From: Bradyrhizobium sp. G127
GTDB taxonomy: Bacteria; Pseudomonadota; Alphaproteobacteria; Rhizobiales; Xanthobacteraceae
NCBI RefSeq assembly: GCF_021502575.1
Contig: NZ_JAKFGN010000002.1
Coordinates: 806,001-870,000, forward strand
Direction: 5' to 3'
DNA length: 64,000 bases
Shown here: positions 39,104 to 45,017 of the stretch, piece by piece
Layout: the number at the start of each line of letters is the position of its first letter
Numbering within the stretch: the stretch's first letter is position 1
Made by a program: the position numbers and the translations under genes
The notes under the pieces: model-generated
The model's database searches: none
What the model was told of the DNA's origin: nothing
The model's input: the letters and a program-made list of their open reading frames with translations, nothing else

Positions 39104-40300
39104 CTAAGCTGTTACACTGGTTGCAAGCTTGTTCAGCTGCCCATCGAGGTCGGCCTCGATGTCGATGGCATTGAGGCGACACACGCGATAGCCCCGCGCC
39201 TCAAGCCACTCGCGCCGCACCGCGCGATCCCGCTCGATGGTCTCGTTCTCGTTTGCATTGACGATCTCGATGGCGATGCGCTTCGTAAACGACACGAAGT
39301 CCGGAATATGGCGGCCCACCGGCGTCTGCCGCTTGAACTGGGATGCAAAGCGGCGATCCGTCCTCAACGAATCCCACAACATACGCTCGGCATCGGTCGG
39401 ATTCCGCCGCAGCAGCCGCGCCAGGCCTCTCACCGTGCTGCTTTCGGACGGCGCGCGGCCTTCCGAATGTTCGGCGAGCAGCGCACGCAGCCGGGTCGCT
39501 TCCGTCCCATTCAGAACCCCGCCTTTCGCCGGACCCTTGCGGCCCTCGGCGATGGCCATCACCACGCCGTGCAGTGTGTGCATGTCCTGCTTGGTCGGCT
39601 CCATCCGGGTGAAGATATTGCGCAGGTTCACCAACATGGTCTCGCGCTTCTCCGGCGGCCGCAGGAATTCGACCTTGTCGAGTTCGCTGACCAGATTGTC
39701 GAAGAACGCCTGCATCTGGTGGTTCGACGCCCGCTCGGAACGCTCCGGCATCGCGAACGGCAGCGCGTTGGAGGTGGCGAGCTTGAACCATTCATAGCCC
39801 ATCAGCAGGACCGCCTGGGCGAGGTTCAGCGAGGCGAAGCCCGGATTCACCGGGAATGTCACAATGCGGTTAGCGAGCGCGACCTCGTCGTTCTGTAGGC
39901 CGTAGCGCTCGCGCCCGAACATGATCGCGGCGGTGCCGCTGGCCGCGGTTTCGCCAATGATCTGGCGGGCGGCCTCCTCCGGTCCCACCACCGGCTTGGC
40001 CTGATCGTGCGCCCGCGCCGTAGTCGCAAACAGCAAAGAGCAGTCGGCCACGGCCGCCTCGACCGTATCGAACAGTTCGACCTTATCGAGAATATGATCG
40101 GCGCCGGCCGCGGCGCGCTGGGCAGCGATATTCGGCCAGCCGTCGCGCGGATTGACGATCCGCAGGCGGGTGAGCCCGAAATTGCCCATCGCCCGCGCGC
40201 ACATGCCGATGTTCTCGCCGAGTTGCGGCTCGACCAGAACCACCACGGGTCCATCCAGTTCCGTACGCGGCTTGGTCTTGTCGGTGCCTGAACCGGTCAT
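39104..40300 (-). CDS. trmJ: TrmJ-like tRNA methyltransferase with C-terminal DUF559-like domain
   Basis: 398 residues. Residues 10-180 are a SPOUT methyltransferase of the TrmJ/group-1 TrmH type (PVVVLVEPQLGENIGMCARAM, IMFGRERYGL, NPGFASLNLAQAVLLMGYE). Family members methylate the 2'-OH of position 32 in tRNA. A helical region follows to about 290. Residues 293-398 resemble DUF559 (RRNPTDAERMLWDSLR, FKRQTPVGRHIPDFV, ARGYRVCRL), an endonuclease-like fold related to Vsr. The usual ELDGxxH motif of that fold reads EIVNANE here, so nuclease activity is doubtful. The ATG at 40300 is chosen because the family similarity begins right after it. Confidence 0.88.
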   Translation of the reverse strand: MTGSGTDKTKPRTELDGPVVVLVEPQLGENIGMCARAMGNFGLTRLRIVNPRDGWPNIAAQRAAAGADHILDKVELFDTVEAAVADCSLLFATTARAHDQAKPVVGPEEAARQIIGETAASGTAAIMFGRERYGLQNDEVALANRIVTFPVNPGFASLNLAQAVLLMGYEWFKLATSNALPFAMPERSERASNHQMQAFFDNLVSELDKVEFLRPPEKRETMLVNLRNIFTRMEPTKQDMHTLHGVVMAIAEGRKGPAKGGVLNGTEATRLRALLAEHSEGRAPSESSTVRGLARLLRRNPTDAERMLWDSLRTDRRFASQFKRQTPVGRHIPDFVSFTKRIAIEIVNANENETIERDRAVRREWLEARGYRVCRLNAIDIEADLDGQLNKLATSVTA

Positions 40301-40508
40301 GGTCTCTGCTTTGATCTGTCTGTTTTCCCCTGCCGTAACGCAGTTGAAGCCCGACAGGTCAAGACCTTTTCTCGATCGCCCGGAAGCGGCCAAATGCCGT
40401 GCAAGGCAGGAATGCCCGAACCGACGCGTTCGGGTTTTGAACTCGGGCAGCCGATTGGGGTAGTAATTGCGCACGAGGTGACCCTTGACCCAGACAGAGA
40501 CGACCCGC

Positions 40509-41648
40509 ATGCCCCCCAGCACTTCGACAACTCCCGCACCCGGCCCGAACAAACCGGCCACAAGTGCGGCCTTGCGGCGGCTGGCCATTCCCGCTGCGTG
40601 CGTCGCCGTCGCGGCAATCTTCGTGGTGCTGGCGACAGCGCGCTGGGATGAATGGGTCAGCAGCGCGACAATTCAGACAACCAACGATGCCTATGTCCGC
40701 GCCGAGGTTTCGCAACTGAGCAGCCGTGTGGCCGGCGAGGTCAAGACCGTGGCCGCCAGCGACTACCAGCGCGTCAAGGCCGGGGACCTGCTGGTCGAAA
40801 TCGATCCCGCAGATTACGAGGCGCAGGTCGCACAAGCGGAAGCGGCGGTGGCAGGCGCGCAGGCCGCGCTCGATAACCTCGCCAATCAGGTCGAACTCCA
40901 GTACGCCACCATCGCGCAGTCCGAGGCCCAGCGCGCCTCCGCCGAAGCCATTCAGGTCGAAGCCCAGCAGGAATACGACCGTCAGCATGGCCTGCTCCAA
41001 AGCCCCGCCTTCACGCGCCAGCGGCTCGAACAGGCCACCGCAGCCCTCGCCAAGTCAGACGCCGATGTCCATGCCAGCCGCGCCGTCATCGCCGCGCAGA
41101 GGCATCAGCTCGAGGTGCTGGCCGGAACCAAGAAGCAGCGCGCCGCGGACGTTCTCGCCGCGCAGGCCGCTTTGAAGGCCGCCAAACTCAAGCTCGGCTA
41201 CACCCGCATCGTCGCGCCGTTCGACGGCATCGTCGGCGCGCGGCAGGTGCAGCCCGGTGATTACGTCAACATCGGCAGCAATCTGTTCAATGTCGTACCG
41301 CTGCCGAATGTCTACGTGATCGCGAATTACAAGGAGACGCAGCTGACCCGCGTGAAACCGGGGCAGCCGGTGGAAATCACGGTCGACAGCTTCCCGCGCC
41401 AGACCTTGCGCGGCCGCGTGGCGCGCATCTCACCGGCCAGCGGGTCACAATTCGCGCTGCTGCCCCCCGATAACGCCACCGGGAATTTCACCAAGGTGGT
41501 GCAGCGCATTCCGCTGCGGATCGAATTCGACAAGGGGCAACCACTGCTCGACAATCTGCTTCCCGGCATGTCGGCGGAAACGCGGATCAACACCGAAGGA
41601 TCGGTCGCGCCATCCAACACCGGAGCCAAAACCGGTGGCGGAAACTAA
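40509..41648 (+). CDS. emrA: EmrA/HlyD-type membrane fusion protein
   Basis: 379 residues from the ATG at 40509; a TTG at 40485 with GAGGTG upstream is a competing start. There is one transmembrane segment near residues 25-45. Biotin-lipoyl-like halves flank a long coiled-coil hairpin (about residues 95-200) and a beta-barrel region with GYTRIVAPFDGIVGARQV follows. It links the inner-membrane pump to an outer-membrane channel. Its last 14 bases overlap the start of the emrB-type gene. Confidence 0.9.
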   Translation: MPPSTSTTPAPGPNKPATSAALRRLAIPAACVAVAAIFVVLATARWDEWVSSATIQTTNDAYVRAEVSQLSSRVAGEVKTVAASDYQRVKAGDLLVEIDPADYEAQVAQAEAAVAGAQAALDNLANQVELQYATIAQSEAQRASAEAIQVEAQQEYDRQHGLLQSPAFTRQRLEQATAALAKSDADVHASRAVIAAQRHQLEVLAGTKKQRAADVLAAQAALKAAKLKLGYTRIVAPFDGIVGARQVQPGDYVNIGSNLFNVVPLPNVYVIANYKETQLTRVKPGQPVEITVDSFPRQTLRGRVARISPASGSQFALLPPDNATGNFTKVVQRIPLRIEFDKGQPLLDNLLPGMSAETRINTEGSVAPSNTGAKTGGGN

Positions 41649-43218
41649 AATCATCGCCAGCGGGCCGGTTTCCACCGGCCAGCCCGCTCACTATCCGCTG
41701 CTGGCCGTCGCCGCGGTGCTGCTGGGCGCGTCGATGGCAAACATCGACAGCCGGATGTTTTCGATCGGGCTGCCCGATCTCAAGGGCGCCTTTTCGCTCT
41801 CCTTCGATGAAGGTGCGTGGCTCTCGACGGCTTCGACCGCGTCGCAAATCTTCATCGCGCCCGCCGTCGCGTGGATGGCCACGGTCTTCGGCCTGCGCCG
41901 CATTCTCGGCGCCCCCAGCCTCGTTTTCGCGGCGATCTCGCTCATGCTGCCGTTTGTTCGCGATTATCAGGCACTTATGGCCCTCACAATCCTGCACGGC
42001 CTGTTGCTCGGCACCTTCGTGCCGGCCACGCTGATGATCATTTTCCGCAATCTGCCGATGCAGTGGTGGCTGGTTGCGATCGGGATTTACGCGCTGCGGG
42101 TCGGCTTCTCGCTGAACTTCGGTCCCACGCTGGTCGGCTTCTACGTCGATCACGTCGGCTGGCAGTGGCTCTATTGGCAGGACGCGATCATCGCCGTGCT
42201 TATGGCGATCCTGGTTTACCTCGGCGCGCCGCGCGAGCCCGTCAACCGGGCTCTGCTGGAGACGGCGGACTGGGGTGGAATGCTGCTGCTGGGAACCGGG
42301 ATCGCGATGGTCTATGCCGGCCTCGATCAGGGCAACCGGCTGGACTGGCTCGGGTCCGGGACGGTGGTGGCGATGCTGCTGAGCGGCGCGGCTCTGCTGG
42401 TGGCGTTTTTTGTCAACGAGGCGCTGGTCCGGGATCCATGGGCCCATGCGAATGTGTTGCTGTCGCGCAATATCGGCTTCGCCCTGGTGGTGATCCTGCT
42501 CTACACCCTGACCAGTCTTTCCAATTCATCGCTTGTCCCGAATTTCCTCTCCACGGTGGCGCAGCTACGTCCCGAACAGACCGGCCGCCTGCTGCTGGTT
42601 TACGGCGTCCTGCCGATGGCGATCACCTTTCCGGTCTCGATCTGGCTGGCGCGGCGTTTAGACCTGCGAATTCTGCTGGTGATCGGCCTGCTCACCTTCG
42701 CGGCGGCGGCTCTGCTCGGAACCCGGATCACCCACGAATGGGCCCTGACCGATTTCATCCCCATGGTGCTGCTGCAGTCCGTCGGCCAGTCCTTCACACT
42801 TCTTCCGATCATCCTGATCACACTGGCCAATTCCGATCCGACGCGGGCGACAGCTTTTGCCGCCTATATCCAGATCATGCGGCTCGGCGGCGCGGAAATC
42901 GGCATCGCCCTGATGGGCACTTGGCTGCGGGTGCGTGAGCAGGTGCATTCCAACCTGCTCGGCCAGCATGTCACCCACGCCAAGGACCAGGTACACGATC
43001 TTCTGGCCAAACTGTCCGGCTATTTCGCCAGCTACGGAACGGGCACCGCCACCGGGCGCAGTGTGGGCAAACTGGCCGGCATCGTTCAGCGCGAGGCCAA
43101 TGTGCTGGCCTATATCGATGGCTTCTGGCTGACCTTCATTTTCGCGATTGCCGCGCTGCTCGTGGCGGCGCTGATTACCAAGGCCCCGCCCGGACCTTTC
43201 AGCCCGAAAACCCGATAG
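41635..43218 (+). CDS. emrB: EmrB/QacA-type MFS multidrug efflux transporter (DHA2)
   Basis: 527 residues with about 14 hydrophobic segments, as expected for DHA2 drug:proton antiporters. The N-terminus has the motif ASMANIDSRMFSIGLPDL. The GTG start at 41635 overlaps emrA by 14 bases, so the two are translationally coupled. With EmrA it would export hydrophobic compounds. No regulator gene is adjacent, and the outer-membrane factor is elsewhere. Confidence 0.9.
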   Translation: MAETKIIASGPVSTGQPAHYPLLAVAAVLLGASMANIDSRMFSIGLPDLKGAFSLSFDEGAWLSTASTASQIFIAPAVAWMATVFGLRRILGAPSLVFAAISLMLPFVRDYQALMALTILHGLLLGTFVPATLMIIFRNLPMQWWLVAIGIYALRVGFSLNFGPTLVGFYVDHVGWQWLYWQDAIIAVLMAILVYLGAPREPVNRALLETADWGGMLLLGTGIAMVYAGLDQGNRLDWLGSGTVVAMLLSGAALLVAFFVNEALVRDPWAHANVLLSRNIGFALVVILLYTLTSLSNSSLVPNFLSTVAQLRPEQTGRLLLVYGVLPMAITFPVSIWLARRLDLRILLVIGLLTFAAAALLGTRITHEWALTDFIPMVLLQSVGQSFTLLPIILITLANSDPTRATAFAAYIQIMRLGGAEIGIALMGTWLRVREQVHSNLLGQHVTHAKDQVHDLLAKLSGYFASYGTGTATGRSVGKLAGIVQREANVLAYIDGFWLTFIFAIAALLVAALITKAPPGPFSPKTR

Positions 43219-43269
43219 CTCCGGTTCGCCCGCGGATCGGCGCGGGTGTCTGTCCAACACCTGCGTATT

Positions 43270-43446
43270 TTGAATCTGGCGATGAAGACGCTGATTCAAC
43301 CTCCGAACATTTTGAATCAACGCTTGAAGATTCCGATTCAACCGCCGAGCATCTTGAATCAGGCTGTGAAGGTTCTGATTCAATCAGTGAAGACATTGAA
43401 TCAAGACGCGAACAGATTGATTCAAGAGCGGATCGCAATGATTGAA
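43270..43446. repeat. Phased array of 9-bp palindromic sites at exact 21-bp spacing
   Basis: Eight nonamers centred at 43274, 43295, 43316, 43337, 43358, 43379, 43400 and 43421 alternate between TTGAATCAA and its reverse complement TTGATTCAA. Three are exact, the others differ by one or two bases; a ninth weak site is at 43442. Spacing is 21 bases throughout, two helical turns, so all sites face the same side. The 12-base spacers vary but nearly all contain GAA or a close variant. The array lies between emrB and icd. A DNA-binding array or a heptad-coding minisatellite are the two readings; which is right is unknown. Confidence 0.85.
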
Positions 43447-43802
43447 ATTATCTTTATAAATCAAAGGGGTTACTGGATCGTTTGAATCTCGCCCAAAACG
43501 CGAGGTGCCCGGTCCCGTTGCTCTTGCGCGTCGCCGGTGCATGAAAAACACGGCCGGCGGAAGTGCCAGGGACTTTCGCCTCTGCACGGTTTCGCAAAAC
43601 CACTCGCGCGCACCTGGCTGTCCAAAATTCGTGATCTGGAACAACTCGAAATCAGGCTCCCCGAGCGAAGTCCGCCCCGACCTGCCAGAAAGTCTCAGGT
43701 GCCTTGCCTTCCAGCCCGCCGAGACGGGTGCTATAGCCACAAGCTGGAACCTGTTGCGGTTCTCACGCCCTTTCCGCCCCCCATTTTAAGGCCCGATCCC
43801 TC
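43447..43802. other. Intergenic region upstream of icd
   Basis: 356 bases. Open frames exist on the plus strand here (for example 43505-43789) but they start late, lack a ribosome-binding site and have no recognisable similarity. The icd promoter should lie here. Nothing else seen. Confidence 0.5.
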
Positions 43803-45017
43803 ATGGCAAAAATCAAGGTGACCAACCCCGTCGTCGAGCTCGATGGCGACGAGATGACCCGGATCATCTGGCAGTACATCAAGGACAAGCTGATCAACCC
43901 GTTCCTGGATGTGAAGCTCGAGTACTACGACCTCGGGATGGAGTACCGCGACAAGACCAACGATCAGGTCACCATCGACGCGGCCAACGCGATCAAGAAG
44001 CACGGCGTCGGCGTCAAGTGCGCCACCATCACGCCGGACGAAGCCCGCGTGAAGGAATTCGGCCTCAAGGAGATGTGGAAGTCGCCGAACGGCACCATCC
44101 GCAACATCCTCGGCGGCGTCATCTTCCGCGAACCGATCATCTGCAAGAACGTGCCGCGCTTGGTGCCCGGCTGGACCAAGCCGATCATCATCGGCCGCCA
44201 CGCGTTCGGCGACCAGTACCGCGCCACCGACTTCAAGTTCCCCGGCAAGGGCGTCCTGACGATGAAGTTCGTCGGCGAGGACGGCACCGTGATCGAGCGC
44301 GAGGTGTTCAAGTCGCCGGCCGCCGGCGTCGCCATGGGCATGTACAACCTGGACGATTCCATCCGCGACTTTGCACGCGCCTCGCTGAACTACGGCCTGT
44401 CGCGCGGCTATCCGGTGTACCTGTCGACCAAGAACACCATCCTCAAGGTCTATGACGGCCGCTTCAAGGACATCTTCCAGGAGATCTACGACACCGACTT
44501 CAAGAAGGATTTCGAGGCCAAGGGCCTGACCTATGAGCATCGTCTGATCGACGACATGGTCGCCTCGGCGCTGAAGTGGTCCGGCGGCTACGTCTGGGCC
44601 TGCAAGAACTACGACGGCGACGTGCAGTCCGACACCGTGGCGCAGGGCTACGGCTCGCTGGGCCTGATGACCTCGGTACTGCTGACGCCGGACGGCAAGG
44701 TGGTGGAAGCCGAGGCCGCCCACGGCACCGTCACGCGCCATTACCGCGAGCACCAGAAGGGCAAGGAAACTTCGACCAACTCGATCGCGTCGATCTTTGC
44801 CTGGACCCAGGGCCTCGCCCACCGCGCCAAGCTCGATAACAACCCGGAGCTGGCGAAGTTCGCCAAGACGCTGGAGAAGGTCTGCGTCGATACGGTCGAA
44901 TCCGGCTACATGACCAAGGATCTGGCGCTGCTTGTCGGTGCAGACCAGCGCTGGCTCTCCACCACCGGCTTCCTCGACAAGGTCGCGGAAAACCTCACCA
45001 AGGCGATGGCCGCGTAA
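43803..45017 (+). CDS. icd: NADP-dependent isocitrate dehydrogenase
   Basis: 404 residues, type II (eukaryote-like) Icd as usual in alphaproteobacteria. Signatures are [38 protein letters not shown] and the NADP-binding end [23 protein letters not shown]-cycle enzyme making 2-oxoglutarate. A strong terminator follows. Confidence 0.97.

Follow-up and report, generated by a model that had tools for sequence, protein, structure and literature searches.

Phased GANTC arrays in Hyphomicrobiales suggest a signal of position and orientation in the late-replicating part of the chromosome

The MatP/matS system has several sites that all lie in one terminus-side part of the chromosome and are thought to organise it; matS sites are single palindromic sequences without polarity, dense around dif. 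KOPS, which orient FtsK, and the sites of the Tus-Ter system are polar sequences related to the terminus, and both flip their orientation there. The iterons of plasmid and secondary-chromosome origins are phased repeats of about two helical turns, some of which carry methylation sites. The arrays described here resemble matS in that they lie mainly on the terminus side (96 of 103 placed loci at a fraction of at least 0.48 of the way from parB to its opposite point), but they are phased, polar (70 of 70 further loci co-oriented), made of methylation sites and thin at the terminus. Unlike KOPS and Tus-Ter sites, they keep the same strand on both arms, and unlike iterons, they are not at the origin, several loci lying far from it.

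MatP is said to occur only in enteric bacteria and Vibrionaceae (PMC7188993). For ZapT of Caulobacter, a MerR-family protein linked to the Z-ring whose gene adjoins ihfA, ten ChIP sites are reported, nine in the terminus part and mostly in genes (PMC7188993, PMC7858052); according to the excerpted text of one of these reports, no motif was found and the specificity in vitro is low (PMC7188993). The arrays share with ZapT sites a position in the terminus half, often within genes, and a ZapT-like MerR gene stands beside ihfA here too, whereas the arrays are known here from sequence and the ZapT sites from ChIP. GANTC is reported to fall short of its expected frequency by a factor of two or more in this class, most orders of which carry the methylase CcrM, and to be hemimethylated in Caulobacter in fewer than 10% of cells near the terminus as against about 80% near the origin (PMC3973325); the same trend is reported for Agrobacterium (PMC11514494). 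GcrA/CcrM promoters likewise present GANTC to a protein, a putative one in the case of the arrays, but those are promoter sites, and neither a 21-bp phase nor a chromosome-wide polarity is described for them in the excerpted text of PMC3667746.

Terminus handling in alphaproteobacteria beyond Caulobacter has, as far as we know, lacked a handle, MatP being said to be missing and ZapT having no known motif, and the present array family can be read from sequence. An earlier note on this stretch of DNA knew of no named element like it, which stands as far as our literature search reaches: no description of such arrays was found among the titles and abstract openings listed, most subscription journals being outside its scope.

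The array in the window and its neighbours

The window is the whole 64,000-nucleotide stretch analysed, from contig NZ_JAKFGN010000002.1 of Bradyrhizobium sp. G127; its own genus in our survey is Afipia. The features of the array and its surroundings are collected in Table 1. The earlier note had described eight nonamers at exact 21-bp intervals, in strict alternation with their reverse complement, followed by a ninth weak site. The steps are exact (43272–43423), and alternation is strict in the window (centres A T A T A T A T), although not in relatives, where 72 neighbour pairs alternate and 18 do not. The nonamers are not identical, TTGAWTCAA being perfect in only three of eight (starts 43312, 43396 and 43417); the outer bases vary in the other five and GAWTC is the invariant part. 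At the ninth phase position (43440) the sequence reads GATTG, which keeps the spacing but not the core. On the icd strand the unit follows approximately the pattern TGAAGnnnYTGAWTCAAnnn. The exclusion of CRISPR in the earlier note agrees with the 9-bp repeats, with the 12-bp spacers sharing TGAAG, and with the neighbours, which can be named as trmJ, efflux genes and icd.

Every core matches GANTC and is therefore a predicted recognition site of CcrM, a point that the earlier note had missed together with the order-wide family and the chromosomal placement. GANTC is halved in the window as a whole, with 146 occurrences against 331 ± 18 expected from 100 dinucleotide shuffles, and its density rises to nine per 200 bp in the array against at most three per 200 bp outside 43260–43500. 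No other pair of GANTC sites 21 bp apart was found in the 64-kb window, and TRF run on the 64 kb reported a single array, that of the window, with period 42. Two further words had gone unmentioned, an out-of-phase GATTC at 43329 and an outlier GAATC at 43484; the outlier word also occurs 63–65 bp from the last core in loci L003–L007, L009 and L011.

Table 1. Coordinates of the array, its cores and neighbouring genes in the window
Feature	Position	Strand	Remark
trmJ (SpoU methylase) with C-terminal DUF559 domain	39104..40300	-	ancestral array neighbour; start placed at MTGSGTDK by comparison
hlyD-type membrane-fusion gene	40485..41648	+	separates trmJ from the array in this species
MFS efflux gene	41635..43218	+	
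Whole array	43262..43450	.	eight phased units and a decayed ninth
Core 1, GAATC	43272..43276	.	predicted CcrM site
Core 2, GATTC	43293..43297	.	
Core 3, GAATC	43314..43318	.	perfect nonamer
Additional GATTC	43329..43333	.	out of phase
Core 4, GATTC	43335..43339	.	
Core 5, GAATC	43356..43360	.	
Core 6, GATTC	43377..43381	.	
Core 7, GAATC	43398..43402	.	perfect nonamer
Core 8, GATTC	43419..43423	.	perfect nonamer
Outlier GAATC	43484..43488	.	in TTGAATCTC, 65 bp from core 8
icd, isocitrate dehydrogenase	43803..45017	+	downstream neighbour of the array

The placement given by the earlier note, upstream of icd or downstream of the efflux operon, is right for the present neighbours but not for the ancestry, the original neighbour being, by comparison of relatives, trmJ. 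The hlyD-MFS operon (40485–43218) separates trmJ from the array in several Afipia loci and is absent in others, which marks the region as a spot of gene gain and loss; with this operon lying between trmJ and the array of the window, the array now resembles an icd element. TrmJ and DUF559 form an in-frame fusion in the window.

Distribution of the arrays and codon choice within genes

A DNA search of 61 genomes combined with a sequence-only model (R1, 81 bp, built from 24 four-unit windows) located the array between trmJ and icd in 26 of 29 Afipia genomes, the window's own genome counted, and the three genomes without a match are only 83–84% complete. The own genome carries one array by R1; a weak match in it (C1:40582, E 0.01) falls within coding sequence, has similar weak matches in other Afipia and was rejected as chance. 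Among 110 phase positions in 16 Afipia loci, 101 read GAATC or GATTC and two GACTC, a descriptive count since the loci had been found by such cores; L002, a near copy of the window, was left out of the phase counts. A second conserved part, TGAAG or TTTCTGAA, lies about half-way through the unit, so that a conserved TGA recurs about every helical turn. The Afipia arrays comprise about three to ten units, with steps of 20, 22, 41 or 43 bp now and then, and two genomes (G013 and G026) retain only a two-unit trace by R1. Their spacers diverge while the 21-bp phase persists, and copy number varies while the phase holds, the pattern that the earlier note had proposed to look for in relatives; this supports the first of its two readings, a binding array. 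In one genome (G004, L078 4854–6209) the array is divided into two blocks separated by about 1.1 kb, an arrangement that an insertion could have produced.

Outside Afipia, arrays stand directly before trmJ. In a scan of TrmJ loci, three cores spaced by 21 bp were found right before the trmJ start in 20 of the best 80 of 321 loci. These 20 include Bradyrhizobium, Tardiphaga and others but no Afipia, and their cores lie in most cases near -61, -40 and -19 from the start codon. The core centres of these leaders are A-T-A in 15, A-T-T in four and A-A-T in one, and the units reach the start codon in varying frames. Eight Rhodopseudomonas loci showed no core pair 21 bp apart within 3.5 kb before trmJ. 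By this comparison, the site beside trmJ is the ancestral one of the array. A GCTTGAGAAAT-like stretch, possibly a promoter, was seen by eye about 90–110 bp before trmJ, with or without an array (L131, L139, L141, L142 and others).

A second model (R2, 67 bp) was built from 18 arrays, none from Afipia, oriented solely by the asymmetry of the unit. At E 0.001 it matched 99 of 297 genomes and 44 of 118 genera of the order, and at E 0.005 it matched 101 of 151 genomes of family f24; matching genomes across the order carry from one to about seven loci. With these cut-offs, no array was seen in two thirds of the order's genomes and in one third of f24, which counts against the explanation preferred below. 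In a class-wide draw, six of 386 other genomes matched, four of them in family f59. The f59 loci, outside the order (L298–L301), hold arrays of the same type with two to three units, and L298–L300 share a related flank and look real by eye. The non-Afipia consensus is approximately TTGAATCAnTTTCTGAA per 21 bp. In 16 loci from five genomes of the second set described below, an asymmetric unit of approximately TTGANTCAnTTTGTGAAG stands out clearly in several and faintly in others, with core centres on the reported strand of A in 21, T in 11 and C in four.

Several arrays lie within genes. Recurrent places among 60 loci inspected are within ycjX (DUF463), within a FemAB-like gene, and beside an acetyl-CoA hydrolase gene, a lytic transglycosylase-like gene and others, the names from the lytic transglycosylase-like gene onwards having been read off the translations. 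In 12 ycjX genes from four families, all 46 Glu/Asp-Ser pairs between FPGDLP and FVRFRPP are written as GANTC (GAATC, GATTC or GACTC), against 14 of 39 such pairs outside this stretch, the limits of the test region having been fixed by the conserved flanking words and not by codons. Four array columns, picked since at least three genes carry GAATCA there, are GANTC in 44 of 44 cells, and swaps between Glu and Asp keep GANTC; Glu is GAA in 33 of 33 (243 GAA and 198 GAG elsewhere), and Ser is TCA in 38 of 44 (23 of 414 elsewhere). Five FemAB-like genes show GANTC in 16 of 16 Glu/Asp-Ser pairs of the array stretch and in three of seven outside. The genes are related, and the cells of these codon counts are not independent. 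We take this as selection on DNA that extends to the methylatable pentamer itself.

Placement and polarity along the chromosome

The chromosomal parB served as the origin mark, and the position of a locus is its distance from parB towards the opposite point, given as a fraction. hemE was rejected as a mark: it is near parB in the placed non-Afipia genomes and distant from it in Afipia, and parB was therefore used throughout. Its strand was confirmed by translation in four genomes. The terminus was set by GC skew in G220 and taken elsewhere as the point opposite parB. The best match per locus was kept, weaker overlapping or opposite-strand matches being dropped, and R2 contains no sequence from the genomes of either set below.

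The first set was drawn from 25 genomes, namely the few-contig matched genomes and five Afipia, with the multi-contig G223, G262, G275 and G048 not placed. It comprises 16 non-Afipia genomes of nine genera and eight families with 52 loci (E up to 0.05); rounded lengths were used for G184, G193, G135, G248 and G244, from which the exact ones differ by less than 1%. Fifty of the 52 loci lie at a fraction of at least 0.48, a cut chosen after this set was known, and the arms carry 25 and 27 of the loci. Every one of the 36 further loci shares the strand of the first locus in its genome, those of the main genus being dependent through synteny, and 47 of 52 are opposite parB. The remaining five are all in G169, which has every locus on the parB strand at fractions of 0.37–0.98, including two at 0.37 and 0.42; this genome speaks against the preferred explanation, and its fractions suggest an inversion that carried the origin along.

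The polarity then stood as an advance prediction for a second set of 51 loci from 17 new genera, one genome each (E up to 0.005). This set was drawn from 20 genomes. Eighteen of them came from the 20 f24 genomes that matched and had no more than five contigs, leaving out G184 (already used) and G760; the other two were G771 and G854. G836, G771 and G854 were dropped, their parB lying on another contig. Array strands were visible before the choice, the blind part being parB and placement. All 51 loci are opposite parB and all 34 further loci are co-oriented, while 46 of 51 lie at or above 0.48, split 28 to 23 between the arms, with arrays on both arms in 12 of 17 genomes.

Over both sets, which cover 33 near-complete non-Afipia genomes, the 96 loci in the origin-distal half thus occupy both arms, the 70 further loci all agree in strand with the first of their genome, and parB is on the other strand for 98 of 103. 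Of the 26 genera, 25 have all their loci opposite parB, and the remaining one does so in six of its seven genomes. Only four of the 103 loci lie above a fraction of 0.9, and this thinning at the terminus itself is a further point against the preferred explanation. In G220, GC skew in 20 sampled pieces is positive between 3.47 and 1.00 Mb, a span that crosses 0, and negative or close to zero between 1.25 and 3.22 Mb, with parB at 3.38 Mb. One arm therefore holds the arrays at 4.71, 4.90 and 0.09 Mb and the other holds the arrays at 1.56, 1.69 and 1.92 Mb, all on the minus strand. A genome-wide strand bias of the plain heptamer was considered as a cause of the polarity and rejected: 20 pieces of G220, each of 18 kb, gave 11 to 15 and no bias.

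Among the matches listed, contigs with at least two loci outside both sets add, by eye, 24 further loci that agree and one that does not (G748 C34). Exceptions to the polarity are G169, genus g419 and Afipia. Genus g419 breaks co-orientation within a contig in both of its genomes that were inspected, with two plus and two weak minus loci on G836 C1 and one minus/plus pair on G748 C34; on G048 C1, a weak minus match of R1 (E 0.0096) faces a plus one. The five complete Afipia genomes, which leave out the window's own five-contig assembly, each carry a single array at a fraction of 0.55–0.66, on the strand opposite parB in three and on the parB strand in two; the placement fits and the polarity fails, as alternating units would allow. 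The system in Afipia looks reduced to one expanded array by trmJ and icd, with alternating units that have no net direction. hemE is far from parB in Afipia G007, G013, G014, G016 and G028, unlike in the other genera placed.

Proposed function and alternative explanations

The family of phased GANTC arrays suggests a signal that tells the cell the position and orientation of the late-replicating part of the chromosome. The arrays may be sites for a putative protein, cooperative in its binding and sensitive to methylation, by which the terminus-facing half is marked or folded in the manner of matS/MatP or ZapT; we put the chances of this explanation at about even. Such a protein would occupy the 21-bp units along a single face of the helix and add its neighbours cooperatively, with GANTC methylation modulating the binding. 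Contacts between proteins bound at separate arrays would then mark or fold this half of the chromosome, for instance by holding it near the division site. Co-orientation would be expected if arrays were bridged pairwise at a fixed geometry, so that all pairs had to be direct repeats.

Several other explanations were weighed against this one. Control of transcription through methylation, in which the array would act on trmJ (and icd) as a promoter or leader element recognised by GcrA or a different regulator, and other arrays would serve other genes, is unlikely but deserves some weight. It is consistent with the three units just before trmJ in the 20 non-Afipia loci (best 80 of 321), where the last core is mostly near -19, and the use of GANTC sites by GcrA is known; its targets in the excerpted text of that report, however, carry none to three GANTC with no mention of phase (PMC3667746). 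Several arrays lie inside coding genes (ycjX, FemAB-like) or beside unrelated genes, and regulation by itself predicts neither the origin-distal placement nor one strand on both arms. An RNA element, with the alternating complementary nonamers forming hairpins in the trmJ leader, is improbable. The window array does fold better than its shuffles on both strands (z -3.2 and -2.7), nine trmJ leaders form mild hairpins (z -1.1 to -3.0), and complementary neighbours are favoured both in the non-Afipia leaders (A-T-A in 15 of 20) and in Afipia (72 alternating pairs versus 18). Inverted nonamers nevertheless fold on either strand by construction, arrays occur inside genes, and those across the order lack the alternation. 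RNA structure as a common denominator was rejected on the single co-oriented array folded (L063, z +0.7).

The drift of a selfish or functionless minisatellite that tolerates insertion in genes would account for the variable number of units and for arrays in variable gene stretches, but we regard it as very improbable: GANTC is otherwise avoided, the cores are kept while the spacers diverge, codons within genes track GANTC, and there are the placement and the polarity. Least credible of all is the second reading in the earlier note, a short coiled-coil minisatellite gene, or a leader peptide in its place. The heptad frame on which that reading was based does exist, L-(N/I)-Q being open on the icd strand in 13 and on the trmJ strand in 12 of the 15 Afipia arrays, but it fails as a sign of coding, both strands being about equally open, as the composition of the unit would give. 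We infer that the openness follows from the unit itself, in which stops are rare on both strands. Steps of 22, 41 and 43 bp break the frame in some relatives, so that it is not kept by all length changes; the unit is read in different frames at different loci, the trmJ start is met in varying frames, the frame in the window has no Pfam match, and inside real genes the codons track GANTC and not the amino acid. The array is accordingly best taken as a DNA element, and as neither a gene nor chiefly an RNA structure.

Beyond the marking of the terminus-facing half by a cooperative protein, a bolder extension can be offered tentatively, with the balance somewhat against it. The Hyphomicrobiales chromosome may have a handed address system, in which polar, methylation-tagged phased arrays on both arms of the origin-distal half all point one way relative to the origin. 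Left and right, in addition to origin and terminus, would be defined through direct-repeat bridging by a filament-forming protein, and inversions that flip some of the arrays would be selected against. An absolute polarity on both arms is not predicted by the direction of replication, by fork traps or by FtsK guidance. If the polarity is confirmed, a circular chromosome would have a functional handedness, and the proposed function, if true, would give GANTC methylation a use in late-replicated DNA.

As to the protein, our guess is that the likeliest known binder is a MerR-family, ZapT-like protein encoded beside ihfA; if ZapT were the binder, the arrays would join a known system, and their polarity would still be new. 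A MerR-type frame stands beside ihfA in all ten genomes inspected, with a Pfam MerR_1 match in two. A neighbourhood so general says little on the binder, and the gene serves as a lead, not as a test. In loci L338–L347 of f24, visual inspection often shows CCG ahead of GANTC in the first unit, together with an upstream CTTGCCGG or CTTGGCGGCGTT stretch, which may be one more polar part of the array.
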